A stretch of 64,000 bases of DNA. Origin: Sphingopyxis sp. USTB-05 (GTDB taxonomy: Bacteria > Pseudomonadota > Alphaproteobacteria > Sphingomonadales > Sphingomonadaceae). Where the stretch lies: NCBI RefSeq assembly GCF_023822045.1, contig NZ_CP084712.1, positions 3,038,001 to 3,102,000 of the forward strand, given 5' to 3'. The notes under the pieces are model-generated. The model did not search any database and was not told the DNA's origin. It was given only the letters and a program-made list of their open reading frames with translations. This document shows, in pieces, positions 2,015-20,777 of the stretch. Made by a program: the position numbers and the translations under genes. Each line of letters begins with the position of its first letter. Positions within the stretch are counted from its first letter, which is position 1.

Positions 2015-3009
2015 CACAGAAGACCGCCGACCAGCTCGTCGGCGAACTCGCTCAGCGGTTCTCGCAGCAACTCGACCGGGTACTCCCCGCGGGCCAGCTC
2101 GCGCTGGTCGACTTCCCCGATCATTCCAACGTCGGCGATTCGGCGATCTGGCTCGGCGAGATGGCCTATCTGCGACGGTCGGGCCGCCTTCCCGCTTATT
2201 ATTCGGCGATCGCCGATTTCGACGACGCCGCGTGCCGGGCGGCGATCGGCGGCGGGGCGATCCTGATCCATGGCGGCGGGAATATGGGGACGCTGTGGCC
2301 GAAGCACGAAGCATTTCGCCTGCACCTGCTGCGCACGCATCGCGGACGCCCGATCATCCAGATGCCGCAGTCGATCCACTATGCCGACCCCGCCGCAGCG
2401 GCCGAAATGGCCGAGGCGATCCGCGCGCACGGGCAATTCACCCTGCTCGTTCGCGACGCGCGCTCGCTCGCCTTTGCCGAGCAGCATTTCGATTGCGATA
2501 TCCGGCTGTGTCCCGATGCCGCGCTGATGCTAGGGCGCCAGCGGCGCGACCCCGCCACCGTCCCGGTCTTTGCCCTGCTCCGTACCGACCATGAACGCGC
2601 CGCCGACGAGGCCACCCTGCCCGCCGGCGTCGTCGCCGACGACTGGCTAGAGGAAGATGCGGGCCAGAAACGCCGCCTGCGCCTGTCGCTAAAGCTCGGC
2701 CGCCTCTTCACTCGCGATCCGATGGCGCAGCGCGCCGCGCGACAACGGCGCCTTGCCGAATGGCGGTTCCAGCGCGGCCTCACCATGCTGTCGGCCGGCG
2801 AGCTGGTCGTCACCGACCGGCTGCACGCGCATATCCTGTCGCTGCTGCTCGACATCCCGCACGTCCTGCTCGACAACAGCTATGGCAAGGTCGCGGGTTT
2901 CGCCGATCAATGGACGGGCGATTATGCGGGGCTGATGCGCGCCACCACCCGCGCCGAAGCCTTCGACACGGCCCTGGCCTGCCGCGCCCCGCAGATCGTG
3001 GACGGCTGA
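2011..3009 (+). CDS. Polysaccharide pyruvyl transferase family protein
   Basis: The 332-residue protein has the two hallmark blocks of the family (PF04230): NVGDSAIWLGE near residues 40-50 and TDRLHAHILSLLL near residues 265-278. Members such as ExoV and CsaB transfer pyruvate from phosphoenolpyruvate to make ketal groups on surface sugars. It has no signal peptide and is presumably cytoplasmic. Its start overlaps the flippase stop (ATGA), making it the last gene of this plus-strand operon; 22 bases later it meets the convergent priming transferase gene. Some family members are not pyruvyltransferases, so the reaction is inferred. Confidence 0.82.
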   Translation: MTQKTADQLVGELAQRFSQQLDRVLPAGQLALVDFPDHSNVGDSAIWLGEMAYLRRSGRLPAYYSAIADFDDAACRAAIGGGAILIHGGGNMGTLWPKHEAFRLHLLRTHRGRPIIQMPQSIHYADPAAAAEMAEAIRAHGQFTLLVRDARSLAFAEQHFDCDIRLCPDAALMLGRQRRDPATVPVFALLRTDHERAADEATLPAGVVADDWLEEDAGQKRRLRLSLKLGRLFTRDPMAQRAARQRRLAEWRFQRGLTMLSAGELVVTDRLHAHILSLLLDIPHVLLDNSYGKVAGFADQWTGDYAGLMRATTRAEAFDTALACRAPQIVDG

Positions 3010-3031
3010 GCGCCGTCCACAAGCCTTTACC

Positions 3032-4420
3032 TCAATAAGCGTTGCGGTGGACGAGTACTTGCGCGGTGCGCGCGAGGATCGAAACGTCGCGCAGCAACGA
3101 CCAGCCATGCTGATATTCGAGATCGGATTCGAGCCGGTCGAGAATATCGCGCTTCGTGTTGGTGGCCCCGCGAAAGCCGCGAATCTGGGCGAGCCCCGTG
3201 ATCCCGGGCTTGAGTGCATGACGGTGCCAATATTGCCGGTCGACGCGCCAGAACAGCTCGTCCCCGGCGGTCGAACCCAGCGCGTGCGGGCGCGGCCCGA
3301 CAAGGCTCATCTCACCCGACAACACATTGATGAGCTGCGGCAGTTCGTCGATGCTCGTCGCGCGGATGAATTTGCCGACGCGCGTGATCCGGTCGTCGTC
3401 GCGGCTTGCCGACCGCGCCCCGTTCGCGTCGGTCGTCTCGACGCGCATGCTGCGGAATTTCAGGATGCGGAAGATGCGATTGCCGCGTCCCATCCGTTCC
3501 TGACGGAAAAAGACCGGGCCGGGCGTATCGAGCTTGATCGCCAGCGCGACAATCATCAGCAGCGGCGACAACAGGATCAGCGCAGGGATCGTCACGGCCA
3601 GGTCGAGCGCGCGTTTCTTTACCCGGTTCGCCCGGTTGAGCGGGCCCCACGACACGACCAGCGTCGTCACCCCGCCGCGCTGCCGCGTGGTGAGCGGGCC
3701 CAGTTCGGCAATCTCGGGCATCACGATCTCGCCCACGATGTTGACGCCCTTCAACGCGCGCGCCCATTCGGCCCGATGCGCGGGGGCACAAACGATCGTC
3801 ACGCGATCATAATCTTGCAGCACCGTACCGAGACGATCGAGCATATAGGGATCGTCCAGATCGGTCCGCAGCCCCGATGCGCGCGCGTCGATGATCTCGC
3901 GATCAAGGTAGGAGGACGGCAGGTTCGCGCCGTCGACGATGACCAGTTCGGCGGTCATATCGCCGAAAGCGCGGCGCACCATTCGGCAGATCAGAAGCCG
4001 CTGCGCCACCAGCAACGTCACCGCGGTCACCATGCCCATCCCGATGGCGAGCCGCGGCACCTTGCCGGTGATCCGTAGCGAGAAGGCGACCAACAGGAAG
4101 ACGAACAGGGTTGTCGCGAACGACAAGAGCGTCTGCCGCACGCTTTTGACCGGATGCGTCAGGCAGCGCGGATTATAGGCCTGATTCTGGAATGCGATCG
4201 CGAAATGGACGAACAGGGCACCCAGCATCGCGGTCAGCAATCCATCCGAAATGACGCGCGGCTGTTCGATCATCAGCGTCACCGCAAAGCCGACCGCGAG
4301 CGCGGCCGCGTCCAGGGCGATCAGCCCGAGACAGAGCCATATTTTGGCATCGCGCCGTGCCGCTTTGGCGAGTGGCGTTCGAACGGGCGCACCGTGGAGC
4401 GCCAAGTCGATCTTTGTCAT
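3032..4420 (-). CDS. Exopolysaccharide polyprenyl glycosylphosphotransferase (priming transferase)
   Basis: The 462-residue protein has an N-terminal block of four to five hydrophobic segments (about residues 25-135), a middle Rossmann-like region, a re-entrant hydrophobic segment after KKRALDLAV, and the C-terminal bacterial sugar transferase domain (PF02397). Conserved motifs visible there are [36 protein letters not shown] and [11 protein letters not shown]. Homologues (WcaJ, GumD, SpsB) load the first sugar-1-phosphate onto undecaprenyl phosphate. I chose the ATG at 4420 rather than the longer upstream frame because the family begins shortly before the first membrane helix. It converges on the polysaccharide operon but may serve a different polymer. 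Confidence 0.88.
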
Positions 4421-4453
4421 GGGATGGGGAGGCTCCCTGAATTTGCATGATAT

Positions 4454-4468
4454 TGTTGCGATGCAACA
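4454..4468. promoter_or_regulatory. Short palindrome in divergent promoter region
   Basis: TGTTGC-GAT-GCAACA lies 34 bases upstream of the priming transferase start, inside the 271-base divergent gap shared with the thioredoxin-like gene. It could be a repressor or activator site. No regulator is identified, and nothing else recognisable is seen in this gap except the AAGGA ribosome site before 4692. Confidence 0.3.
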
Positions 4469-4691
4469 TGCCTGGGCCCTCGGCGAATACAAGCGGACCG
4501 CGCGAGCACGTGCCGGATACAGGATGATCCGTGCGGAGACCGTCGGTCCACCGCGTTCAAGCGGGCGCGCGCAGCCGCCGCGCGCGGCAGGTAACTTTTC
4601 TGTCCGCGTAAACGAAGGTGTCATTGCGGCCGCCAAGCGCAAGCATGATCCTCGGCCTGTGAAGCATCTTTTATCGAAGGAAAGACAGTTT

Positions 4692-5789
4692 ATGCCCGGC
4701 AAAGGACGCCGTTTCGGTTTCGCCAGCATTGCAGCGCTTGCCGCGGTGGGCGCCGTCGTCGCCTGTTTCGGCGACATTCCCGGGGGGCCGCTCGTCGCTC
4801 GCCCAATCCCCGTCGCCGGCGCTGCCGAGACGTCTGTCCGCCCCCTTGCCGCGCTGGACGCCGACGGACCCTGGCTGGGCAATGACGCACCGAAAGCGCT
4901 GCGCGGAAAGGTCGTCCTCGTCAATTTCTGGACCTATTCGTGCATCAACTCGCTGCGCCCGCTCCCCTATCTTCGCGACTGGGCCCAAAAATATAAGGAT
5001 GACGGCCTGGTGGTGGTCGGCGTGCATACCCCCGAGTTCGCGTTCGAAAAGAATGTCGGCAACGTCCGGCGCGCCGTCGCGGAGTTGGGCGTCAGTTGGC
5101 CGGTCAAGCTCGACAGCGACTATGCCACCTGGCAGAAATTCGGCAACGACGGATGGCCGGGCTTCTATTTCATCGACGCCAAGGGCCGCGTCCGCAGCCA
5201 CCGCTTGGGCGAAGGCGATTATGCGGCGTCCGAGCGGCTGCTTCAGGAATTGCTGGCCGAAGCGAACGGAAGGCCGATCCATGCGCCGCTAACCGGCGAT
5301 ATCGGAAAGGGCATCGAGGCATCGCCCGATTGGGCCGAACTACGCTCGGGCGAAACCTATGTCGGCTATCGCCAAGCCCAGAACCTCGCCGCGCCGCAGC
5401 GGTTCAAATCCGACAGCTCGGCCCAATATGACGCCCCGGCGTCGATCGGCCCGAACCAATGGAATCTCGCCGGACGGTGGACCGTCGGCGGCGAATACGC
5501 GCGTGCGGATGCGGCGTCCGCGCGGATACGCTACCGCTTTCAGGCCCGCGACCTGCATCTCGTCCTCGGCGCGCGGCCAGACGGCAAGCCCGCGCGCTTT
5601 CGGGTGACGCTCGATGGACAGCCGCCCGCGGGCGATCACGGCGTCGATGTCGATGCAAACGGGATGGGCGTCGTCACCGGCGACCGTTTGTATCAACTGG
5701 TCCGACAGTCGGCGGGCGTGAAGGCGCGGACGTTCGAAATCGAATTTCTCGACCCCGGCGTCCGCGCCTATGCCTTCACCTTCGGCTAG
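4692..5789 (+). CDS. DipZ-like thioredoxin-fold lipoprotein/exported protein with degenerate active site
   Basis: The 365-residue protein begins with a hydrophobic export segment ending in VVAC (possible lipobox, Cys25). Residues about 60-190 form a TlpA/redoxin-type thioredoxin fold (VVLVNFWTYSCINSLRPLPY, GVHTPEFAFEKN, WPGFYFIDAKGR), and the remaining half resembles the beta-sandwich C-terminal domain of DipZ proteins. The usual CxxC is CINS (Cys84, Ser87), so a classic dithiol reaction is not possible unless another cysteine takes part. No CcdA/DsbD membrane partner is adjacent. The ATG at 4692 is supported by an AAGGA about 10 bases upstream. Role in envelope thiol chemistry is inferred. 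Confidence 0.75.
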   Translation: MPGKGRRFGFASIAALAAVGAVVACFGDIPGGPLVARPIPVAGAAETSVRPLAALDADGPWLGNDAPKALRGKVVLVNFWTYSCINSLRPLPYLRDWAQKYKDDGLVVVGVHTPEFAFEKNVGNVRRAVAELGVSWPVKLDSDYATWQKFGNDGWPGFYFIDAKGRVRSHRLGEGDYAASERLLQELLAEANGRPIHAPLTGDIGKGIEASPDWAELRSGETYVGYRQAQNLAAPQRFKSDSSAQYDAPASIGPNQWNLAGRWTVGGEYARADAASARIRYRFQARDLHLVLGARPDGKPARFRVTLDGQPPAGDHGVDVDANGMGVVTGDRLYQLVRQSAGVKARTFEIEFLDPGVRAYAFTFG

Positions 5790-5793
5790 TTCG

Positions 5794-6465
5794 TCACGGC
5801 CCGGCGTTGAATTCGGCGACCAGATCGAAACGATCGCCGCGAAATAGCTGCCGCACATGCGTCACGACGCGGCCCGCGCGCCAGGTCGTCCGGTCGAGTT
5901 CGAGGCAGGCAGTGCCCGTGAGCAGCCCCGCTTCCTTGCGCGTCGGGTTCACCGCGCGGATCACGTGGCGCGCCTGCGTCCAAGGGATATGGCCGAGCAG
6001 CCAGGTTCCAGGCGCCTCCTGCGCAAAGTCGGCATCCGCCGCCTCGGGCACTTCGCCGAGCGCGATGAAGCGGCGCTCCAGCGCAAACGCCTCGCCCGCC
6101 GCCATGTGGACGCCCTCGATGCATAGCGCCGGTCCGGGACATAGCTCTTCGCCCGCCGTCGATGTTTCGATTGACGTCAGTTCCCAGCGATAGGCTTCGC
6201 CGCGCGCCGCGATCAGTTCGGCAAGGTCGGGCACGGTCATCACCGCCGAATGGACCGGCGGATGCGCTACGAATGTCCCCGCCTTGCGTCGGCGTTCGAC
6301 CAACCCCGATGCGGCAAGTTCGCCGAGCGCCTTGCTCACCGTCGCGCGCGCGCAACCGTAGCGCGCAGCGAGTTCCTGTTCGGTCGGCACGCGGTCGCCG
6401 GGGCGCCATTCGCCAGTCTGGATCGACGCGGTGATTTCGTCGCGGATACGGCGCGCAGGGTTCAT
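5794..6465 (-). CDS. hutC: Histidine utilisation repressor, GntR/HutC family
   Basis: The 223-residue protein has an N-terminal GntR winged helix (RRIRDEITASIQTGEW, PTEQELAARYGCARATVSKAL, residues about 4-65) and a C-terminal UTRA ligand domain of the HutC type. HutC represses the hut genes and is released by urocanate. The ATG at 6465 shares ATGA with the hutF stop, so hutF and hutC form one minus-strand operon diverging from hutIHGU. The likely operator is the palindrome at 7825-7842. Alternative upstream starts would run far into hutF and are unlikely. Confidence 0.93.
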   Translation of the reverse strand: MNPARRIRDEITASIQTGEWRPGDRVPTEQELAARYGCARATVSKALGELAASGLVERRRKAGTFVAHPPVHSAVMTVPDLAELIAARGEAYRWELTSIETSTAGEELCPGPALCIEGVHMAAGEAFALERRFIALGEVPEAADADFAQEAPGTWLLGHIPWTQARHVIRAVNPTRKEAGLLTGTACLELDRTTWRAGRVVTHVRQLFRGDRFDLVAEFNAGP

Positions 6466-7808
6466 GCGAGCAGCCGCGCGACGCAGGCGCGATAGGTCGC
6501 ACCGACTGCCTCGCCCTCGACATGACGGCCATGCGCGACGCGCTTGACGCCCGCGCGCCAAACGCTGTCGATCGCACCTGAGCGTGCCGCAAATATCCAG
6601 CGGTCGAGCAGCGTGGCATCGTCGGTTCCCGCGAAAACGGGATGATCGAGATCGAGGGAAACGATGTCCGCGGCGTGCCCGGCGGCCAGTCCGGCCGGCA
6701 CGCCCAGCGCCTGCGCCCCGCCCTTTACGGCATTTGCGAAGAGATTGGCGCCGACGAACGGCGCCGCGTCGCTTGCAAGCAACGCGCGCGCGCGCTGCGC
6801 CAAGCGCTGCGAATATTCGAGCGCGCGCAGTTCCTGCGCCGCATCGACGAGGATATTGCTGTCGGTGCCGACCCCGAAGCGCCCACCCGCGGCGAGATAG
6901 TCGACTGCCGGAAAAATGCCGTCGCCCAGATTACCTTCGGTGATCGGGCACAGTCCGGCGACCGCGCCGCTTGCGGCAAGCCGAGGGACTTCGTTGGCAT
7001 CAAGGTGAGTCGAATGGATGAGGCACCAGCGTTCGTCGACCCCGGCGTTATCGAGCAGCCATTCAACCGGTCGCGCGCCGCTCCATGCGACGCAGTCGGC
7101 GACTTCCTTCACCTGTTCAGCGGCGTGGATATGCACCGGCCCCGTCGGCGACAGGTCGAGCAGCGCCGCCAGTTCATCGGGCGTCACGGCGCGAAGCGAG
7201 TGGGGCGCGACCCCGATATTGGCGTCGCCGGAGAGTTTCGACCGCGAGGCGTCGAGCAACGCGGCAAAGCCGTCGATGTCGTTGAGGAAACGCCGCTGCC
7301 CAGGGCTCGGCGGCGCCGCATCGAAATTGCCATGCGCGTAAAAGACGGGGAGCAGCGTCAAACCGACACCCGTTTCGGCGCTCGCCCGCACGATCGCGCC
7401 GGCCATTTCCGCGCGATCGGCATAGGCAGCGCCCGCCGGATCATGGTGCAGATAATGAAATTCGCCGACGCGGGTGAACCCCGTCTCCAGCATCTCGACA
7501 TAGGCCTGCGCGGTGATCGCCGCGACATCCTCGGGCGTTAGCCGATCGAGGAAGCGGTACATGATCTCGCGCCAGCTCCAGAAATTATCGTCGGGGCGGC
7601 TGCGGCGCTCAGAAAGTCCGGCCATGCCGCGCTGGAAGCCGTGGCTGTGGACGTTGCAAAGACCCGGAAGCGCGACGCGATGCCGTTCGTCATCGGGCTC
7701 GGCCGCAACACCGGTTTCGATCGATGCGATCCGGCCGTCGGCAACACCCAGCCGCACGTCCTTTTTCCATCCATTGTCGATCCACGCACGTTCGAACCAG
7801 AGAGCCAT
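6462..7808 (-). CDS. hutF: Formimidoylglutamate deiminase
   Basis: This amidohydrolase-superfamily enzyme of 448 residues converts N-formimino-L-glutamate to N-formylglutamate and ammonia, feeding HutG in the five-step histidine pathway. Metal-binding signatures include [11 protein letters not shown] near the N-terminus, HIHAAEQ in the middle and GVGTDSN towards the C-terminus. The ATG at 7808 has AGGA about 9 bases upstream; a GTG one codon earlier (7811) is an equal alternative. It is co-transcribed with hutC and its promoter lies at the hut operator. The presence of hutG nearby supports this assignment over other deaminases. Confidence 0.93.
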
Positions 7809-7824
7809 CACCTGTCGTCCTCAT

Positions 7825-7842
7825 ATTATGTCTAGACATAAT
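7825..7842. promoter_or_regulatory. Probable HutC operator in the hutF/hutI divergent promoter
   Basis: ATTATGTCTAGACATAAT is a perfect 18-base palindrome centred between the divergent hutF and hutI genes. Its core GTCTAGAC agrees with the GT-n-TA-n-AC pattern typical of HutC-subfamily GntR regulators. It lies 16 bases upstream of hutF and 25 bases upstream of the favoured hutI start, well placed to shut both promoters. The sequence is direct observation; binding by the adjacent hutC product is inference. Confidence 0.75.
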
Positions 7843-7867
7843 GGCGCATAAGAACGACAGTGTCCAG

Positions 7868-9052
7868 ATGGAGCAACACTGGACGAACGCCCGACTCGCG
7901 ACGATGGCCGATGGAGACCTCGGCCTGATCGACGATGGCGTGGTGGCCGCGAAGGACGGCCGAATCGTCTATGCCGGTCCGGCCGAAGGCGCCCCAGCAG
8001 CGACAGGAACGGTGCATGATTGCAAAGGCCGGCTGATCACCCCCGGGCTGATCGACTGCCACACGCATCTCGTCCACGGCGGCAATCGCGCGAACGAATG
8101 GGCGATGCGATTGGCGGGCGCGAGTTATGAAGAGATTGCCCGCGCCGGCGGCGGAATCGTTTCGACGATGCGCGCAACGCGCGAGGCGAGCGAGGCCGAA
8201 CTGGTCGCCAGCGCGCTCCCGCGTCTCGACGCACTGATCGCCGAGGGTGTCACGACGATCGAGATCAAATCGGGCTATGGCCTGTCGACCGACGACGAAC
8301 TCAAGATGCTGCGCGCCGCGCGCGCGCTTGGCGATCACCGCGCGGTCCGTATCGAACCGACCTTTCTCGGCGCGCACGCGCTGCCCCCCCAATATAAGGG
8401 CGACAGCGACGCCTATATCGACCTCGTCGTCGGCGAGATGATCCCCGCGGCGGCGCCGCTCGCGACCGCGGTCGACGCCTTTTGCGAAGGCATCGGCTTT
8501 TCGCCCGCGCAATGCTCGCGCGTGATCGAGGCGGCGCAGGCGCACGGCCTCGCGGTCAAGCTCCACGCCGAACAATTGTCGGCGCTCCACGGCAGCGCGC
8601 TCGCCGCACGGCATGGCGCGTTATCCGCCGACCATCTCGAACATGCGACCGACGATGATGTCCGCGCGATGGCCGAGGCCGGAACCGTCGCCGTGCTGCT
8701 GCCCGGCGCTTATTATTTCATGCGCGAAACCAAGCTGCCGCCCATCGACGCGATGCGCCGCCATGGCACGCGCATTGCGATCGCGACCGACAACAACCCC
8801 GGCACCTCGCCGACGACGTCGCTGCTGCTGATGCTCAACATGGGCGCGACCTTGTTCGGCCTGACGGTCGTCGAGGCGCTGCGCGCCGTGACGGTCAACG
8901 CCGCGGCGGCGCTCGGGCTAAGCGCCGAGGTCGGCACGCTCGAGCCCGGCAAGGCATGCGATCTCGCGATCTGGAACGTCAGCGACCCCGCTGAACTTGT
9001 CTATCGCATCGGCTTCAACTCACTTCACCAACGCATCAAGGACGGACAATGA
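7868..9052 (+). CDS. hutI: Imidazolonepropionase
   Basis: The enzyme hydrolyses 4-imidazolone-5-propionate to N-formimino-L-glutamate, the third step of histidine degradation. Amidohydrolase motifs are clear: [21 protein letters not shown], then KLHAEQLS and [11 protein letters not shown]. From the ATG at 7868 ([10 protein letters not shown]) it has 394 residues, close to the family norm; an in-frame ATG at 7841 would add nine residues but would overlap the operator palindrome and has no ribosome site. Its stop shares ATGA with hutH, so the hutIHGU genes are one coupled operon. Confidence 0.94.
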
Positions 9053-10581
9053 TCATCGAGCCCGGGCATATATCGCTCGCCGACTGGCGTGAAATCTATG
9101 AGGGCGCGAGCGCTGAACTAAGCGACGGAGCATGGGAAGCGATCGACGCGAGCGTTGCCGCGGTCGCGCGTATCGTTGCGAAAGGCGCGCCCGTCTATGG
9201 CATCAACACCGGCTTCGGAAAGCTAGCGAGCGTGCGTATCGCCGACGACGATCTGGCGACGCTCCAGCGCAATATCGTGCTCAGCCATGCCGCGGGCACC
9301 GGCGCTCCATCACCGACAAAGGTCGTGCGGCTGATGATGGCGCTGAAGCTTGCGAGCTTCGGCATGGGCGCCTCGGGCGTGCAACGCGAAACCGTCGCGA
9401 TGATCGAGGCAATGCTGGCGAAAGGCCTCACCCCCGTGGTCCCGTCGCAGGGTTCGGTGGGCGCGAGCGGTGACCTTGCGCCGCTGTCGCATATGGCCGC
9501 CGCGATGATCGGCGTCGGGGCGATCGAGGTCGGCGGCAAGACGTTGCCCGCCGCCGAAGCGCTGGCGCAGGCCGGCCTGGCGCCGCTCGACCTTGGTCCG
9601 AAGGAAGGCCTTGCGCTTTTGAACGGTACGCAATTTTCGACCGCCAATGCGCTCTCGGGCCTGTTCCGCGCCGAGACCGTCTTCCGCTCGGCGCTCATCA
9701 CCGGCGCGCTTTCGACCGAGGCCGCGAAAGGCTCCGACGCCCCCTTCGACGCGCGCATCCACGCATTGCGCGGCCATGCGGGCCAGCGCGAGGTCGGCGA
9801 CACGTTGCGCACTTTGATGGCCGGATCGGCGATCCGCGCCTCGCACGCCATCGACGATCCGCGCGTGCAGGACCCCTATTGCCTCCGCTGCCAGCCGCAG
9901 GTGATGGGCGCCGTGCTCGATCTGCTGCGACAGGCCGCAACGACGCTCGGCATCGAGGCCAATGGCGTTTCGGACAATCCACTGATCTTTGCCGGAGCTG
10001 GTCCGTTTGGGGACGAGGCACTATCGGGCGGCAATTTCCACGCCGAGCCCGTCGCCTTTGCCGCCGACATGATCGCGATGGCCTTGTGCGAGATCGGCTC
10101 GATTTCGGAGCGGCGGATCGCGATGCTCGTCGATCCCGCACTTTCGGGTCTGCCGGCCTTCCTCACGCCGCGTCCCGGCCTCAACTCGGGCTTCATGATC
10201 CCGCAGGTCACCGCCGCCGCGCTCGTCAGCGAGAATAAGCAGCGCGCCTATCCCGCCAGCGTCGACTCGATCCCGACCTCGGCCAATCAGGAGGATCATG
10301 TGTCGATGGCCGCACACGGCGCGCGCCGCCTGCTCGACATGGCCGACAATGTCAGCGCGGTGATCGGCATCGAATTGCTCGCGGCGTGCCAGGGCATCGA
10401 CTTCCACGCGCCGCTGAAATCGAGCGATGCGCTGGAGGCGGCGCACAAGCATCTGCGCGCCGAGGTGCCGACGCTCGAAGACGACCGGCATTTCCATCCC
10501 GATATGGAGGCCGCAACCGCGCTGATCCGCACCGGCAGCCTCGTCGCTGCCGTACCCGCCAGCCTGCCGGGCGTAGGCTGA
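9049..10581 (+). CDS. hutH: Histidine ammonia-lyase
   Basis: The 510-residue cytoplasmic enzyme deaminates L-histidine to urocanate. The Ala-Ser-Gly triplet that cyclises to the MIO cofactor is present at residues 139-141 within [14 protein letters not shown]. Other family blocks are [11 protein letters not shown] and [13 protein letters not shown]. Length matches HutH of other bacteria. It overlaps hutI by ATGA and hutG by TGATG, which suggests translational coupling throughout the operon. Confidence 0.96.
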
Positions 10582-11384
10582 TGGATTGGCTGCGCGTCCA
10601 TCGCGGCGACGCGCCGCTCGTTATTTCCTTCCCACACGGCGGGACCGATCTGGCGGGTCTCGACGAGCAGTTCGTCTCACCCTGGCACGCGCAGATCGAC
10701 ACCGACTGGTGGATCGCCGAGCTCTACGCCTTCGCCGCCGATCTGGGCGCAACGCTGGTCGCGACCGACATCTCGCGCAGCGTGATCGACATGAACCGCG
10801 ATCCCTCCGGCGCGTCGCTCTACCCCGGACAGGCGACGACCGAGCTGTGCCCGACGACGACCTTTGACGGAGATGCGCTCTATCGCTTTGATCCACCGGA
10901 CGAGCCAGAGATCATGCAGCGGCTGAACTCTTACCACCGACCGTATCACGATATGCTGACACGGGAACTCGACCGCCTGCAATCGGCGCATGGCCGCGTC
11001 GTCCTCTATGACGCGCATTCGATCCGCAGCCATGTCCCGCGCCTGTTCGACGGCGAACTGCCGCAGTTCAACATCGGCACCAATGGGGGCGCGACCTGTG
11101 CGCCCGAGCTGGAAACCATCGTTGCGAACATCTGCGCCGCGAGCGGCCGCAGTCATGTCGTCAACGGCCGTTTCAAGGGTGGTTGGACAACGCGCCACTA
11201 TGGCCGCCCCGACGACGGCATTCATGCCATCCAAATGGAATTGGCACAGCGCGGCTACATGACCGAACCCGAACCGATCACCCACGCCAACTGGCCATCC
11301 ACCCTTGCCCCCAATCCCGCGATCCGGCCCGTGCTGGAGCAAGTGATCGCCGCGACCCTCGATTTTGCGAAAGGACATTCATGA
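10581..11384 (+). CDS. hutG: N-formylglutamate deformylase
   Basis: The 267-residue protein hydrolyses N-formylglutamate to glutamate and formate, the last step when HutF is used. Family motifs include [42 protein letters not shown] and [14 protein letters not shown]. Its ATG overlaps the hutH stop (TGATG) and its stop overlaps hutU (ATGA). The pairing of hutF and hutG shows the organism uses the two-step deiminase/deformylase route rather than a formiminoglutamase. Confidence 0.94.
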
Positions 11385-15390: not shown

Positions 15391-15584
15391 CCTCCGCAAA
15401 TCCCCCTACGGGGATCATCTGGGTATTTCTCCACGCCCGACATTGTGAATTCGCAAAGCGGGCGAGGCATCGGCGGATCATGATCGCCTTGTTCGCACCG
15501 ATGCGGACGGAGTCGGGGAGGATCCGCATCAGCAATGCCGTTCGGGCATCGCGAGCCATCCCCTTTTATCGAGAGGAAGAAGTC
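15391..15584 (+). promoter_or_regulatory. Upstream region of the secreted-protein operon with three palindromes
   Basis: This 194-base stretch has no gene. It contains ATCCCC-CTAC-GGGGAT at 15400-15415, the palindrome GATCATGATC at 15476-15485, and a small hairpin ATGCC-GTTCG-GGCAT at 15535-15549. GAGAGGAAGA at 15571-15580 is a strong ribosome site for the gene at 15585. No convincing sigma70 boxes could be named. The first palindrome could suit a LuxR/NarL-type regulator, which is inference. Confidence 0.4.
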
Positions 15585-16118
15585 ATGATGAAGAAAGTCA
15601 TGCTGGCGGTGTCGACGCTGGCTCTTGCTGTCACGGCCGCACCCGCCTTCGCGCAGGGCAGCCAAGATCAGGACAACGACAACACCACGACCGGCGCCGC
15701 AGGCGGCCTCGGCAACGACACCACTGTCGTCAACGACCTGATCGATCTGTTTGTACAGGACAATGCGGCCGACACCTTCTCGGACGACGACCAGGACAAT
15801 GACGGCAATGGCTCGGGCAACGGCAATAATTCCGTTGTTGCGTTCCAGGTTCTCACCGCAACCAACACCAACCAACAGATGGACGAACTCGTCGATCTGG
15901 ACGGTGAAGACGACACCGATACGGCTGTCGGCTACAACAGCGGCAACAACTCGGTCTCTGGCAGCGCCTTCGCGGCATATGCCGGTATTCTGAACGCTGC
16001 TTGGAACACGGGCATCAACTCGAATGCCCAGGCTGCAACCAACATCGCAGCACAAGGCACGGTCAGCTTCGGCGACAGCGCTCCGGCCGCAGCCGGCGGC
16101 GGTGGCGGCGACGACTAA
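15585..16118 (+). CDS. Secreted Asn/Asp/Gly-rich protein, candidate fibre subunit
   Basis: The 177-residue protein has a clear Sec signal peptide (MMKKVMLAVSTLALAVTAAP, cut near AFA-QG). The mature part is very rich in N, D, Q, G, S, T and A, nearly free of aromatic and basic residues, without cysteine. GNNSV occurs at 80-84 and again at 120-124, a 40-residue spacing, and DLIDL (51-55) is echoed by ELVDL (101-105). Segments such as TATNTNQQM and NTGINSNAQAATNIAAQ resemble the low-complexity repeats of Fap-type amyloid subunits, without clear homology. Strong ribosome site, operon-leading position and a following hairpin suggest high expression. Function is not established. Confidence 0.7.
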   Translation: MMKKVMLAVSTLALAVTAAPAFAQGSQDQDNDNTTTGAAGGLGNDTTVVNDLIDLFVQDNAADTFSDDDQDNDGNGSGNGNNSVVAFQVLTATNTNQQMDELVDLDGEDDTDTAVGYNSGNNSVSGSAFAAYAGILNAAWNTGINSNAQAATNIAAQGTVSFGDSAPAAAGGGGGDD

Positions 16119-16130
16119 GCGTCCCCCCGG

Positions 16131-16164
16131 ATGGCCGGCCCGGCACCACTGGCGGGCCGGCCAT
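16131..16164 (+). terminator. Strong intra-operon hairpin after the candidate subunit gene
   Basis: ATGGCCGGCCCG and CGGGCCGGCCAT form a perfect 12-bp stem with a 10-base loop, 12 bases after the stop codon of the 177-residue protein. Only TT follows, so it may act as a partial terminator or an RNA-stabilising 3' structure, giving more of the first gene than of the genes downstream. Confidence 0.55.
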
Positions 16165-16199
16165 TTACACCAGTTTCGCTTTCAAGGAGCGCCCGTGTC

Positions 16200-16601
16200 A
16201 TGAAACCCCCGATCGTCCTGCTGCTCATGGCGGGCTTATCAACGCCGGCTTGGGCGCAATCGCCTCCTCCGCAAGCCCAGCTCCCGATCGTGACCCAGGC
16301 GGCTCCGTCCGACATCGTGGTGACCGCGGACGTGCCGGTTCGCGCCGAACGCAAGTCGCCGATGTTGAAGGATGCCGAGCTTGAAACATTGCGCGGCGGC
16401 CAATCGCTCGTGATCACCAATCAGACCATGGACTCGATCGTCAGCGGCAACGTCCTCAAAGGCGACTATACCGCCGGCGCGGTCACGCTGAGCGATTTTG
16501 CGCTGTCCAATTTCAACGGTGTCGGCAATCTTTTGATCAACACCGGTGCGCAGGTGAGTGCCCAGAGTGGTATGAACCTGACCATCAACCTCGGCGATTG
16601 A
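16200..16601 (+). CDS. Small secreted protein with double-glycine leader-like motif
   Basis: The 133-residue protein starts at an ATG preceded by AAGGAG. Residues 1-19 are a Sec signal peptide (cut near AWA-QS). After a proline/alanine-rich stretch comes LKDAELETLRGG (56-67), which looks like the end of a double-glycine leader of the type cut by C39 peptidases. The C-terminal half is hydrophobic and N/G/S-rich, containing GVGNLLINTGAQVSAQSGMN. The GG motif and the LINT block recur in the protein encoded at 17340, so the two are probably related. It may be a minor subunit, nucleator or chaperone; no function is proven. Confidence 0.72.
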   Translation: MKPPIVLLLMAGLSTPAWAQSPPPQAQLPIVTQAAPSDIVVTADVPVRAERKSPMLKDAELETLRGGQSLVITNQTMDSIVSGNVLKGDYTAGAVTLSDFALSNFNGVGNLLINTGAQVSAQSGMNLTINLGD

Positions 16602-16608
16602 GCCCGCG

Positions 16609-17343
16609 ATGCGGCGCATGCGCTTCTTGATCGCAGGCCTGCTGTGTGCCCTCTCCGTCACCCCGGCCACCGCCGAGGTCCGGCTCACCGGTCCCGAAAC
16701 GGGCGGCAATTACCAGCTTCACGTGATGACCTGGTGGGACATCCCTTTCCGTTCCGTCATTCGCCAGCGGTATGATTTTAGCTGCGGCTCCGCTGCCGTC
16801 GCGACCCTGCTCACCTATCATTATGGCGCACCGACATCCGAATCGATGCCGTTCCGTTCAATGTGGGAAAAGGGCGACCGCGAAGCGATCCGCAAAGTCG
16901 GCTTCTCGATGCTGGACATGAAGAATTATCTCGCGACGCGCGGCTACCGCGCCGAGGGATTCCGGATCACCGCCGAACAATTGAAACAGGTCAAGCGTCC
17001 GACGATCGTCCTGATGGACCTTAAGGGCTTCAAGCATTTCGTCGTGATCAAAGGCGTGCGCGGCGATCGCGTACTCACCGGCGATTCGGTGCTCGGCCTC
17101 AACGAATATTCGCTCGCGGATTTCGAGAAGCACTGGAATGGCATTGCGCTGGCGATCGTGGAGGGCGGACAGAAGCGCCCTTCCTTCAATCTCGCCGGTG
17201 ACTGGGGTCCCTGGTCACGGGCTCCCTTGGAAAGAGAAGGGTCGCTTCATGTATCGGTCGGCGATCTGACGACCAACCTTCCCCCTCAGTATCAGCTGTC
17301 GCCGCAGATCCTGCTCGATGTGCGCGTCGGTACCGTGAAATGA
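16609..17343 (+). CDS. Exported C39-family cysteine peptidase (FapD-like)
   Basis: The 244-residue protein has a signal peptide (residues 1-22) followed by a C39 papain-like domain. The catalytic set is intact: oxyanion Gln53, Cys59 in YDFSCGSAAVATLL, His143 in GFKHFVVIKG and Asp159 in LTGDS. Unlike bacteriocin transporters it has no ABC or membrane domains, so it works alone in the periplasm, as FapD of Pseudomonas does. Likely substrates are the neighbouring secreted proteins with double-glycine motifs at 16200 and 17340. The gene begins 7 bases after the previous stop and overlaps the next start by ATGA. Confidence 0.85.
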   Translation: MRRMRFLIAGLLCALSVTPATAEVRLTGPETGGNYQLHVMTWWDIPFRSVIRQRYDFSCGSAAVATLLTYHYGAPTSESMPFRSMWEKGDREAIRKVGFSMLDMKNYLATRGYRAEGFRITAEQLKQVKRPTIVLMDLKGFKHFVVIKGVRGDRVLTGDSVLGLNEYSLADFEKHWNGIALAIVEGGQKRPSFNLAGDWGPWSRAPLEREGSLHVSVGDLTTNLPPQYQLSPQILLDVRVGTVK

Positions 17344-17918
17344 GATCAACCATGTCCCCACGCATCCTCCTGCTCGTCTTCGCGCCCACGCTCCTCGCCG
17401 CGAGCGAGCCGGAGGATGCAACCCTGCTGGCCGAGGCACAGACCGTACCCGACGAAGTGCTCGCCATTCAGCGCGGCGGCTTCGCCTTTCAGGGCATGAC
17501 CATTTCCTTCGGCGCCGATATCCGCAGCTTCGTGAACGATGAGCTGGCGCTCCGCACGATCGTCAGCTGGACGCCGGAAGGACAGACGATCGAACGCTTT
17601 GTGTCGCCGTCGCTGACCGCGGTCAGCGCAGCGCAGGTTCAGGGCGGCATTTTGACCAGCGGCGGCATCACCATGCGGGTGGGCGATGAATCGGTGTTCC
17701 TCGCGAACAACGGACAAACGGCGCTCGTCCAGAGCACCGATGCAATCCAGAATGTCCTGATCAACACCGCCAGCAACGTCTCGTTGAATCAGCAGGTCGA
17801 CGCCGTGCTCGACCTCAGCGGTTATGAAGGTTTCCGCGACGCAATTGCTTCAACCCGGATGAGCGATGCGATCGGATCTGTGATGGGCGCTCAAACGGTC
17901 AGCGCACTCGGGAACTGA
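17340..17918 (+). CDS. Secreted protein with double-glycine motif, related to the 16200 gene product
   Basis: The 192-residue protein has a hydrophobic N-terminus (signal peptide to about residue 21; an ATG at 17352 would give a shorter, typical signal), then VPDEVLAIQRGG (36-47), again a double-glycine leader-like motif. The remainder is rich in V, S, T, N, Q and G with likely beta strands, and IQNVLINTASNVSLNQQ (136-152) matches the LINT block of the upstream small protein. It is translationally coupled to the C39 peptidase (ATGA). A role as peptidase substrate and secreted fibre component is inferred; no known family is recognised. Confidence 0.72.
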   Translation: MRSTMSPRILLLVFAPTLLAASEPEDATLLAEAQTVPDEVLAIQRGGFAFQGMTISFGADIRSFVNDELALRTIVSWTPEGQTIERFVSPSLTAVSAAQVQGGILTSGGITMRVGDESVFLANNGQTALVQSTDAIQNVLINTASNVSLNQQVDAVLDLSGYEGFRDAIASTRMSDAIGSVMGAQTVSALGN

Positions 17919-17958
17919 ACGACCCCCCGCCCCCGTTTCGACAGGGACGGTTCACCTG

Positions 17959-17987
17959 GCCCCGCCTCTTCAGGCGGGGCTTCTTTC
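17959..17987 (+). terminator. Rho-independent terminator between convergent operons
   Basis: GCCCCGCCT-CTTC-AGGCGGGGC is a perfect 9-bp stem and tetraloop followed by TTCTTTC. It ends the plus-strand secreted-protein operon 41 bases after its last stop and lies just before the convergent outer-membrane protein gene. Confidence 0.8.
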
Positions 17988-18023
17988 GTTATAACTGCTG
18001 TTCCGAACTTTCGGCGTCGGGAT

Positions 18024-19475
18024 TTATATCTTGCCGCCGAACGGCATCCGCAGCGTGATCGACACGTCCGGCGCATCCTCGGTCACGCCGATTTCGAAGC
18101 CGAGGTTTAAGACGTCCCGCTCGGTCAGACGGTAGGACATACCGAAATTGAGCGAACCGACGTGCAGGTAGTTCGATTTCTGACGCGTATCGCCGATCTC
18201 GGTCTTTGTCGGAAAGATATAGTTGTGCCGATAGCCAAGCGAGAAGGAAAAGCGCGGATTGAGCGCGAAACCGAAACCGATATTGGCCGAAACGGCGTCG
18301 CCCGGATCAACGCGCCCGATCATCACATCCCCGACCATCTTATTTACGTCGCGCGGGATATGGTAAAGATAGGCCATTCCGCCGTAGATCACTGCGGGAT
18401 CCGACGGCATCAGGAAATTGACCCCTGGCTGCACCGCCCAAAATCCCGAACCGGTGGCAAGGCCCGTCGCGACGCCGAATTCGTCGTAACCGACCTCGAA
18501 CGGCCCCTTGCCCGTATCCGACTTCACGCGCAGCGTTCCGACGAAGATCGGTTTTTGTCCGACCGGGCGATTGAATTGATAGCGCAGCGAAAATTCCGCA
18601 TCGCCGATTCCGTCCTCGCGCAGCGCGATCGAACGGACGATACCCTCGTCTCGCTGCTGTACGACCTCGATCCGATCGTTGCGATAGAGATAGGGTATGC
18701 GCACCTCGGCTTCGAGCCGGTCGCTGATCCCGTAGCGGAGCGAGGCGGTGCCGACGAGCGTGTCGCGGTCGGCGTCGGTCGCCTCGATCAGCCCGATCTG
18801 GATGCCGGGAATCAGCTCGATCCCGCGGAACACAAGGCGATTGGTCGACGAGCGCGTATATTCGAACGAGGGTTCGAAGATGAGATTGCCGGCGCGCGTC
18901 AACACGCCCTGCCCCTCTGGAACAGCGGCAACGCGTTGCTCAGTCGGCTCTTCCGGCGGCGGCGCCTCGCCCACCGGCGCATCCGGCAGGGCGACCGCGT
19001 CGCTCCCTGGACCGGGAAGCGCGGGGCCGGCCACACCTTGCCCCCCCATGCCCGTTCCGCGAAACATCTCAAGCGGGGCCTCGGCGAGGGCAAAGGAAGA
19101 GAGACGGTCGATCTGTGCCTGCTGGGCGATCAACTGTCCCTGCACCTTCACTATCTGTTGCCGCTGTTCGACGAGCATCGTGTTCTGCTGATCGATTAGC
19201 GCACGCTGCTCCGCGATGATCCGGCGCAGCGCTTCGATCTCACTCTCGACGCTCGCGGCCGGCGGGCTTTCCGCAACGCCCCCCGAACCCGCCGGCGCCG
19301 CGGCTATCGCCGTGTTCCACGTCGGCGCAGTATCCAGAAATGGCAACGCTTCGCACAAACATTCGAGCGTCGGCATTTCATGCGCCTCGGCCTGCGAGGG
19401 CGTAAGAACCGCCGAAAGGCCGACCGCCGCCACACCCATATGGCGCAGCATCGGCGGAGCAACGATGCCGCTCAT
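18024..19475 (-). CDS. Outer-membrane beta-barrel protein with N-terminal coiled coil (FapF-like)
   Basis: The 483-residue protein has a signal peptide (to about residue 31), a heptad-rich coiled coil at about 77-127 (ESEIEALRRIIAEQ to QAQIDRL), a proline/glycine-rich linker to about 190, and a barrel from GVLTRAGNLIFEPSFEY to the C-terminus with alternating strands. This is the architecture of FapF, the trimeric pore that exports Fap amyloid subunits. It lies opposite a FapD-like peptidase. The ATG at 19475 shares ATGA with the preceding Crp/Fnr-type gene, so regulator and pore are co-transcribed. A generic barrel transporter remains possible. Confidence 0.78.
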   Translation of the reverse strand: MSGIVAPPMLRHMGVAAVGLSAVLTPSQAEAHEMPTLECLCEALPFLDTAPTWNTAIAAAPAGSGGVAESPPAASVESEIEALRRIIAEQRALIDQQNTMLVEQRQQIVKVQGQLIAQQAQIDRLSSFALAEAPLEMFRGTGMGGQGVAGPALPGPGSDAVALPDAPVGEAPPPEEPTEQRVAAVPEGQGVLTRAGNLIFEPSFEYTRSSTNRLVFRGIELIPGIQIGLIEATDADRDTLVGTASLRYGISDRLEAEVRIPYLYRNDRIEVVQQRDEGIVRSIALREDGIGDAEFSLRYQFNRPVGQKPIFVGTLRVKSDTGKGPFEVGYDEFGVATGLATGSGFWAVQPGVNFLMPSDPAVIYGGMAYLYHIPRDVNKMVGDVMIGRVDPGDAVSANIGFGFALNPRFSFSLGYRHNYIFPTKTEIGDTRQKSNYLHVGSLNFGMSYRLTERDVLNLGFEIGVTEDAPDVSITLRMPFGGKI

Positions 19476-20152
19476 GCCCCTGCCCCTTGCCCAGTGAATG
19501 TTCGCCGGGGCCGCATCGCACCCATATTGTCGATCGCAACGCCCATTTCCTCGCCGGCGATCGCGCGGAGCCCGTCGAGATCGACCAGCCGGCACAATTG
19601 GGGGCCCTCCAGCTCGATCAGCCCCTGACGAACAAAGCCCGAGATCGTCCGGCTAACCGTATGGATCGTCAGGCCCAGATGATCGGCGATATCGCCGCGC
19701 GTCATCGGCAACGGAACGCTGCCAAGCGCCGACAGCCGTTTCGCCGCGATCAATAAAAACGCGGCAACGCGCTCATTGGCATTGCGGCGACCGAGCAGGA
19801 ATATGCATTGGTTCGCACTGTCCAGCGCCCGTTCGAGCGCTCGATTCTGTCCAAACGAATCGGGATCGACGTTCAATGCCGGACGGCGGGTCAGGATCGT
19901 GTTGGTGACGGCTTCGGCCGCAGCATCGCGGGCGCCATATTCGACGCCAAAGACATCGCCTTGATAGAAGAAGCCGGTCAGTTGGCGGTGGCCATCGACG
20001 TGAAAATGGCAGGTTCTGACGGTTCCCGAGATGACTTCGAACCAGCAATCACCCGGATCGCCCTGCGAAAAAATAATCTCGCCTTTACGAAATTTTAGGA
20101 TGGTATCCTGCGGAATGGACCCGCGTTGAAACTCTGCCGACAGACCTTGCAC
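19472..20152 (-). CDS. Crp/Fnr-family transcriptional regulator
   Basis: The 226-residue protein has an N-terminal cyclic-nucleotide-type beta barrel (FRKGEIIFSQGDPGDCWFEVISG) and a C-terminal winged helix, MTRGDIADHLGLTIHTVSRT, close to FixK/NNR-type HTH sequences. The four-cysteine iron-sulfur motif of Fnr is absent. The start is a GTG at 20152 with GGAG 8 bases upstream. It overlaps the coiled-coil/barrel gene by ATGA and probably controls that gene and perhaps the facing secreted-protein operon. No TTGAT-N4-ATCAA box was found in the surrounding gaps. Confidence 0.88.
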   Translation of the reverse strand: MQGLSAEFQRGSIPQDTILKFRKGEIIFSQGDPGDCWFEVISGTVRTCHFHVDGHRQLTGFFYQGDVFGVEYGARDAAAEAVTNTILTRRPALNVDPDSFGQNRALERALDSANQCIFLLGRRNANERVAAFLLIAAKRLSALGSVPLPMTRGDIADHLGLTIHTVSRTISGFVRQGLIELEGPQLCRLVDLDGLRAIAGEEMGVAIDNMGAMRPRRTFTGQGAGA

Positions 20153-20459
20153 GCCACGTCTCCAATCTGGAATTGGTATTTGCGGCGACCCCGTTTGCGA
20201 GTCTCATCTGCCTTTGCGGGTGTTGAATCCATCCGCATAAAAACCAAGGAATTCGTGTGTATGAACAGCTAAGGAAAATCACTTACGTAAATTTCCTTAG
20301 CATTTCAGGGCAGATTAAGACTGAATTTCAATATCATAGGCCTATTGTCATAGGCAGTGTCGCTAGATAGTTAATTAGCTTAGGTTAATTGATAAACAGC
20401 GCACAAACATATATCATCGAAAGCAGAGCAGGTGGGTTGCGGCTATTGCCGCGCAAAAG
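20153..20459. promoter_or_regulatory. AT-rich regulatory gap with inverted and direct repeats
   Basis: This 307-base gap between two regulator genes is visibly richer in A and T than the surrounding DNA. It holds an inverted repeat GCTAAGGAAA / TTTCCTTAGC (20268-20277 and 20292-20301), the palindrome ATAGGCCTAT (20336-20345) and the direct repeat TCATAGGC (20334 and 20348, 14 bases apart). No gene is supported here. It probably carries the promoters of the Crp/Fnr-type and LuxR-type genes. Confidence 0.5.
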
Positions 20460-20777
20460 ATGCTCGTCGGTCGCACAGAGTCTACGCCTTGGGTGTCAGG
20501 GGATTGCGCCGTGCATCGAAACGCATTGAACACCGAACCGCATTTGACCTTTCGTGAGCATCAAATACTAGAATTGGTAGCAGTCGGCTGCTCGGCCAAG
20601 CAGATCGCGCTTGAGATCAATATCGCTCCGCGAACCGTTGAACGTCATATCGAAAATGTGCGGCTGAAACTGAACGCGCGCAACCGCGCGCATCTCATAA
20701 CGCAGGCGATGCATCTTGGCCTGCTGATCATCGAAACCCCGCCTCCGGACGAACCGACGCTTTTCGAACTCAAATAA
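20460..20777 (+). CDS. HTH-only LuxR/NarL-type regulator
   Basis: Up to 105 residues; almost the whole protein is a GerE/LuxR helix-turn-helix (LTFREHQILELVAVGCSAKQI, then IAPRTVERHIENVRLKL). There is no receiver or sensory domain, so it is either a stand-alone regulator or the tail of a lost response regulator. A GTG at 20511 with AGGGG 8 bases upstream is a better start than the ATG at 20460, giving 88 residues. Its TAA directly abuts the 3' CCA of the convergent tRNA gene. Its targets may include the secreted-protein operon. Confidence 0.72.
   Translation: MLVGRTESTPWVSGDCAVHRNALNTEPHLTFREHQILELVAVGCSAKQIALEINIAPRTVERHIENVRLKLNARNRAHLITQAMHLGLLIIETPPPDEPTLFELK

Follow-up and report, generated by a model that had tools for sequence, protein, structure and literature searches.

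A conserved gene cluster of Sphingopyxis sp. USTB-05 best read as a sister lineage of the Fap secretion system

We examined a gene cluster in a 64,000-nucleotide stretch of DNA from Sphingopyxis sp. USTB-05 (contig NZ_CP084712.1, positions 3,038,001 to 3,102,000), referred to below as the window. Genes A to E encode predicted exported proteins related to the Fap system, whereas F and G, which adjoin them, encode regulator-type proteins (Table 1). The results indicate with high confidence that the cluster is real and conserved, and that it is a re-organised Fap relative for which a sister lineage is the best reading. A preliminary description made from the sequence alone had proposed a distant, re-organised Fap relative, and this proposal is borne out by the homology of E and C to FapF and FapD, by the FapF fold of the E model and by the separate group formed in both protein trees. 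The fuller reading, a sister lineage of the Fap secretion system with the processing, export and fibre roles proposed below, is considered probable. Loci of the window's type are called variant and those of the known Fap type canonical.

Homology of the barrel and the peptidase to FapF and FapD

Profile searches gave matches for both central components, with an E-value of 1.4e-38 for E against the NCBIfam FapF model (132.8 bits; model cut-off 700 bits) and of 6.4e-46 for C against the FapD model (156.4 bits; cut-off 330). E also matched the solved FapF structure in the PDB (2.3e-29) across residues 188-479. The predicted model of E, with an overall predicted local distance difference test score (pLDDT) of 78, consisted of a helix at residues 76-129 that a disordered linker joins to a barrel at about residues 197-482; the coiled-coil helix reached pLDDT values of 94-97 at residues 81-120, in agreement with the outer-membrane barrel with N-terminal coiled coil described earlier. 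When this model was searched against the PDB, the first 18 rows were all FapF, with target template modelling scores of 0.80-0.84, and the COG4313 channel 4rl8 came next, the weakest FapF row surpassing it by five orders of magnitude in E-value. Of the 26 rows in the input alignment of the model, 5 were canonical FapF, which makes the agreement in fold partly dependent on that in sequence. Rather than falling into an unrelated porin family, the barrel belongs to the FapF superfamily, with FapF closest by both sequence and fold, and the peptidase is a member of the FapD superfamily.

COG4313 channels share the barrel fold and are less similar to E than FapF is; no peptidase partner is reported for them in the available text of PMC6173800. 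We considered whether E might be an uptake channel of this type, with C acting elsewhere and the genes being neighbours by chance. The rank of 4rl8 as the next fold match, a weak match of E to Pfam Phenol_MetA_deg (21.9 bits, just under the cut-off of 22) and two barrels without a C39 neighbour would agree with it, but all 18 FapF rows lie above 4rl8 and the 40 peptidase places of at least 128 bits surveyed below are all paired with barrels, and we regard this explanation as hardly tenable.

Protein C matched Pfam C39 (1.7e-15) as well as the C39 domains of transporters of the peptidase-containing ATP-binding cassette (ABC) transporter (PCAT) type. The tetrad Gln53/Cys59/His143/Asp159, previously described as intact in an exported C39 peptidase, was confirmed in C, which has a signal-like N-terminus, and did not vary among FapD representatives (35 of variant and 15 of canonical type), save for a gap at positions 53 and 59 in the variant L088, a Vibrio plasmid copy with a broken peptidase reading frame (10362-11040). 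Positions 55 and 61, near Cys59, differ between variant and canonical FapD.

Conservation and distribution of the gene cluster

In the 20 loci retrieved with E as query, B, C and D adjoined the barrel in every case and A in 18, so that the gene grouping is not due to chance. The loci with A include Croceibacterium, Sphingobium and Sphingomonas, and A gave no tblastn match in two Asticcacaulis loci. The nearest relatives of E came mostly from Sphingopyxis, with 73-90% identity. A crude hydropathy test recognised a signal-like N-terminal stretch in A to E and none in F and G; the genes for a secreted N/D/G-rich protein and two small secreted proteins, as first described, are present, with such a stretch in A, B and D. 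The reading frames of C and D share 4 bases.

Table 1. Features of the cluster, with positions in the window
Feature	Position	Strand	Description
ATCTGGGTATTTCTCC block	15417-15432	+	upstream of A; recognisable in most aligned relatives; searched pattern found once in the genome
A	15585-16118	+	exported N/D/G-rich protein, 177 aa; a single repeat at the C-terminus; fibre subunit proposed, in the role of FapC
B	16200-16601	+	exported protein, 133 aa; Sec-type signal, then putative C39 leader MLKDAELETLRGG to residue 67; proposed nucleator or minor subunit
C	16609-17343	+	exported stand-alone C39 peptidase, 244 aa; FapD homologue; Q53, C59, H143 and D159 intact
D	17340-17918	+	exported protein, 192 aa, at the fapE position; putative leader TVPDEVLAIQRGG to residue 47; probable FapE counterpart
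E	18024-19475	-	FapF-like outer-membrane barrel, 483 aa
F	19472-20152	-	Crp/Fnr-type (FixK-like) regulator, 226 aa; sphingomonad-specific accessory
G	20460-20777	+	LuxR-type helix-turn-helix protein, 105 aa; divergent from F

In the peptidase tree the variant (34 rows) and canonical (15 rows) proteins formed groups with support values of 96/95 and 100/99 respectively, and in the barrel tree the variant (35 rows) and canonical (15 rows) groups each reached 98 in the Shimodaira-Hasegawa-like approximate likelihood ratio test (SH-aLRT). Since the root of both trees is not known, "sister" is only the simplest reading.

A FapF-family match was present in 42 of the 398 genomes of the window's phylum; of the 50 places listed, 35 were fetched and comprised 15 canonical, 14 variant and 5 other loci, together with 1 barrel (L081) without C39 match in the stretch. 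Within the window's order, taken as Sphingomonadales, 296 genomes were surveyed, returning a FapD-family match in 66 and a FapF-family match in 52. All 40 FapD-family places of at least 128 bits (39 genomes) had a FapF-family barrel no more than 5 kb away on their contig, as read from the FapD and FapF match tables of the 296 genomes; 14 were canonical, 25 variant and 1 intermediate (L100). Many weaker FapD matches sit in reading frames about 700 residues long and are probably ABC transporters. Peptidase, barrel and small proteins occur together widely. Named variants outside Alphaproteobacteria were Cupriavidus and Vibrio plasmid records.

The canonical-type loci (L061, L065, L121-L132) were found in 14 of the 296 genomes of the order, and genome G467 holds one canonical and one variant locus. 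These 14 genomes lie in a class outside the list of a 2013 survey, which in its available text limits Fap to Beta-, Gamma- and Deltaproteobacteria (PMC3792158); later surveys add many genera. Between fapE and fapF, the canonical operon of sphingomonad locus L061 contains a further protein (210 aa, 5912-6544) that looks exported, and L057 an open reading frame (ORF) resembling a PAS-GGDEF diguanylate cyclase (5852-6778; domains assigned by eye).

For gene order and leader analyses, 59 variant and 28 canonical entries with non-identical peptidases (last 150 residues) were used; L097, L101, L116 and the second L074 copy were dropped from 63 variant entries, and nine loci classed as "other" (L082-L086, L100, L118-L120) were left out. 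The barrel gene was convergent in 36 of the 59 variant entries, downstream on the same strand in 16, an order as in fapABCDEF, upstream on the same strand in 6 and divergent in 1. The arrangement in two convergent operons noted at first, which the window shows, is consequently one among several. Tandem duplications were observed in L074 (A-B-C-D, 1588-6970) and in L062 (fapD-fapE, 3967-10423).

A common leader register in D and FapE

The gene downstream of the peptidase was picked by strand, length and gap, with no use of a motif, and the leader pattern [L/I/V/M]-x3-x-G-[G/K/R]-[F/Y/I/M/L/Q] was present in 59/59 variant and 28/28 canonical genes. Inside residues 1-110 it occurred in 85 of these 87 genes and in 310 of 3121 other ORFs of the same loci; the two remaining genes are longer, with the pattern further in. 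The residue at -1 was Gly in 58 of the 59 variant D proteins and Lys in one (L110), as against Lys in 17 and Arg in 11 of the 28 canonical FapE proteins. L110, the only variant with a D leader ending in GK, has an A-like gene directly upstream of the peptidase, and no B-type gene was seen there.

A leader profile was built from 50 representatives with L/I/V/M at -7, G at -2, G/K/R at -1 and F/Y/I/M/L at +1, the position being set by hand in L071, L077, L094, L096 and L099 because of a chance match earlier in the protein. Position -12 was mostly hydrophobic, with Asp at -10 in 33, Glu at -8 in 25 and Arg at -3 in 45 representatives; Leu at -7 (49) and Gly at -2 (50) stand at places set by the pattern, and since -7, -2, -1 and +1 are demanded by it, agreement there is partly built in. 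When 20 D proteins were aligned independently, the sole invariant columns were L41, G46 and G47.

Profile comparison of D with FapE gave a probability of 96.7 (E 3.5e-10) over 42 columns, which surround the leader and the first mature residues, with 20 permuted controls at or below 0.24; after trimming at the motif the probability was 94.8, with 40 controls at or below 1.8. With an earlier D profile, ORFs at the FapE position had been matched in two canonical loci, at 3e-4 and 5e-4. By position and putative leader region, D is probably the counterpart of FapE.

Published C39 substrates show a ComA consensus of Leu-12, Glu-8 and Leu-7 ahead of a double glycine, and in LahT the leader helix lies in a groove with contacts at -4, -7 and -12 (both from the available text of PMC6363468). 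Judged at the level of sequence, the register of the D and FapE leaders is the one published for these substrates. The double-glycine leaders of PCAT systems such as ComA and LahT are thus alike in consensus and spacing; unlike them, the cluster uses an exported, stand-alone protease, and the leader follows a Sec-type signal.

Protein B as a second candidate substrate

In the window, B carries Leu-12, Glu-8, Leu-7 and the double glycine, and its predicted mature form of 66 aa comprises one FapB-like repeat; no C39 leader was seen in A. Predicted mature B proteins measured 64-72 residues in 28 of 33 entries (longest B ORFs 104-206), the search allowing about 40 to 90 residues from the C-terminus and the site looking misplaced in L020, L067 and L070. 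Scores of at least 8 bits against the leader profile were reached by 0/24 FapB and 1/27 FapC proteins. Against a background of 3000 ORFs, the ten best scores belonged to system members or to extra leader proteins (L062, L066), followed by 12.8 (L132; may be FapA) and 11.8. From the leader register, B and D appear fairly likely to be substrates of C that are cut at the double glycine.

Small proteins with a C39-like leader were also observed in canonical Fap loci at L062:8001-8444, L066:11906-12400 and, by eye, L057:2299-2643; these are possible further FapD substrates.

The same register agrees with bacteriocin leaders, raising the alternative that B and D are double-glycine peptides of the bacteriocin or microcin kind and C their maturation protease. 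This is highly unlikely, as a scan of seven genes brought up no ABC transporter, C is a stand-alone protein that is exported, and the double glycines, at residues 66-67 of B and 46-47 of D, follow a Sec-type signal. B moreover has a C-terminal motif in common with D and also with A, and the pairing with a barrel is general.

Putative subunits A and B

A single C-terminal repeat common to A and B was detected with a probability of 96 (E 3.6e-9; 20 controls at or below 0.4), and a shorter C-terminal motif common to B and D with 79. B matched the last FapB repeat with 66 (30 controls at or below 0.8), and 109 A and B repeats compared with 90 FapB/C repeats gave 59.6 (40 controls at or below 2.3). 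These values suggest, though not firmly, that the A/B repeat may be remotely FapB/C-like. The remote similarity rests on profile comparison, because direct hmmscan with FapE, FapB and FapC gave no match. The earlier statement that the subunits are not recognisable as Fap proteins accordingly stands as regards the family models, but has to be amended for D, which matches FapE by position and leader, and for A and B with their remote repeat. FapA, often lost in Fap, had no model match among the seven proteins scanned.

An automatic composition filter recovered an N/D/S/T/G-rich ORF upstream of B in 51 of the 58 variant loci; seven loci failed it, of which L010, L013 and L110 do have an A-like gene by other inspection. 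The longest A-like ORFs ranged from 168 to 807 aa.

Comparison with known systems

The cluster resembles canonical Fap in its FapF-type barrel with coiled coil, in its exported C39 peptidase with the same tetrad as FapD, in the gene that directly follows the peptidase at the FapE position and shares the leader register, and in repeat-bearing subunits upstream. It differs in forming separate groups in both trees, in not reaching the NCBIfam cut-offs, in the leader residue -1 (Gly here, Lys/Arg in FapE), in having one recognisable repeat per subunit instead of the three of FapB and FapC, and in the often convergent barrel.

The Fil proteins (FilA/DUF6160, FilB and FilC; NCBIfam NF050077-9) likewise have an exported C39 peptidase adjoining a FapF-like barrel. 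Similarity to them is only weak, with C matching FilB at 3.6e-28 (98.7 bits; cut-off 475) and E matching FilC at 1.4e-16 (60.9 bits; cut-off 630), and no DUF6160 or FilA match was obtained among the window proteins scanned. In three of the five Fil-like loci L082-L086 (L082, L085 and L086) the upstream exported protein (DUF6160/FilA) has a leader in the C39 register that, unlike that of D, ends in GQ, and no FapE-position gene separates peptidase and barrel; no leader protein was seen adjoining L083 and L084. In L118-L120 the leader of the upstream protein ends in AG, and L120 has no barrel match in the stretch. Set beside Fap and the variant, these loci were taken as a third lineage, with the leaders read by eye in 6 of the 8.

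Proposed mechanism and points against it

We read the variant proteins as having the following putative roles: A that of FapC, B that of FapB with an added leader, C that of FapD, D that of FapE and E that of FapF. A to E would be exported by Sec, as their signal-like N-termini suggest. In the periplasm, C would strip the second leader off B and D, cutting after the double glycine. The mature forms of B (66 aa) and D (145 aa), together with A, which would stay unprocessed, would then pass through the barrel E, assumed to be trimeric like FapF, with its coiled coil possibly recruiting the cargo. Outside the cell, by analogy with FapC, FapB and FapE, A might polymerise via its C-terminal repeat, B nucleate and D tether. 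Whether amyloid fibres are formed we judge to be about evenly balanced.

The same machinery could instead secrete a non-amyloid cargo, such as an adhesin or a surface coat, in which A would be a low-complexity spacer or adhesin and no cross-beta fibre would arise. The great variation in length of the A-like ORFs would fit such a cargo, as would the single recognisable repeat with its remote FapB/C similarity. However, A and B have a common repeat, as FapB and FapC do, and the N/S/T/G/D-rich bodies and the gene order parallel Fap; a non-amyloid cargo is therefore possible but rather unlikely.

Several results weigh against reading the cluster as a Fap sister lineage with these roles. The probability was 1 for B against the last FapC repeat, and for A it was 15 with the last repeat of FapB and 8 with that of FapC; taken alone against all FapB/C repeats, B reached 8 and A 20. 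The NCBIfam FapA, FapB, FapC and FapE models had no match to A, B or D by direct hmmscan. Beyond the leader, D matched FapE with a probability of only 4, its predicted structure was poor (pLDDT 65), with no match in the PDB reaching 0.001, and in the window it has Val at -12 and -8, although Leu-7 and the double glycine are present. The B leader is looser across loci, with at least 8 bits in 19 of 35 entries, which include L074 twice and L110 with an A-like gene at that place, and with Gly at -1 in 17 of 33. The Gly versus Lys/Arg difference follows a single split of the peptidase tree, and hence amounts to one change plus one exception, L110. No clear acidic pocket accounting for Lys/Arg in canonical FapD emerged from the comparison of variant and canonical peptidases. 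Finally, no C39 match turned up in the stretches fetched for the variant-type barrels L081 and L091, the latter a plasmid barrel of Indioceanicola.

Regulators and upstream DNA

Gene F, which overlaps E by 4 bases, was present in 17 of the 20 E-retrieved loci and not found in the fetched stretches of Sphingobium and two Asticcacaulis; it is a lineage-specific accessory and not part of the core. G adjoins the cluster in L002-L016. Upstream of A, the ATCTGGGTATTTCTCC block is a possible regulatory site, and a palindrome-like CCCCTACGGGG was dropped, being not conserved. Between F and G (20153-20459), a TCACTTACGTA block is kept in most of 11 aligned relatives and is possibly a regulator site.

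Significance

According to the available text of the respective sources, FapD is essential for Fap secretion and needs its catalytic cysteine, while its target "remains unclear", and of the Fap proteins FapE alone was completely processed at its N-terminus (PMC5557850); the FapD substrate was called undetermined in 2018, when fapD and fapF homologues were reported as co-localised in five additional phyla (PMC6173800). The term "undescribed" used at first for the system is thus too broad, as fapD-fapF co-localisation is already published, and may apply at most to the leader and subunit parts. A 2025 review, as far as its available text goes, states that FapD is thought to process FapF and the N-terminus of FapE, and describes Fap as fixed with three repeats, its survey having required FapB/C repeats (PMC12822426). 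The FapE leader register, the Gly versus Lys/Arg split and the sister lineage were not found in the literature searched, supplements and subscription papers being outside its scope, and searches on FilA/FilB/FilC in Acinetobacter, FapF/FapD with Alphaproteobacteria and the fap operon with sphingomonads returned no papers.

The plain double-glycine leader of the variant, once aligned with FapE, exposes the degenerate form present in FapE. This alignment leads to a residue-level hypothesis of FapD cleavage, and we propose the conserved leader site as a candidate FapD cleavage site. As leaders also occur in the Fil-like GQ and the L118-L120 AG loci, a general rule can be put forward: stand-alone exported C39 peptidases with a FapF-like barrel (Fap, the variant and Fil) would form one secretion class, whose cargo bears a Sec signal followed by a C39 leader read in the periplasm, with a lineage-specific residue at -1, namely Gly in the variant, Lys/Arg in Fap, Gln in three Fil-like loci and Gly after Ala in L118-L120. 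We give this rule an even chance. If it is true, FapD would have FapE as its substrate and cleave it at the conserved RG-Lys/Arg site, which lies about 40-85 residues from the start of the precursor ORF.

The sister lineage, which surveys that require FapB/C repeats would probably miss, runs counter to the view that Fap is fixed in evolution and has three repeats. Under the same rule, Fap would not be a "fixed" amyloid system but would belong, as a single branch, to a wider class with single-repeat subunits.

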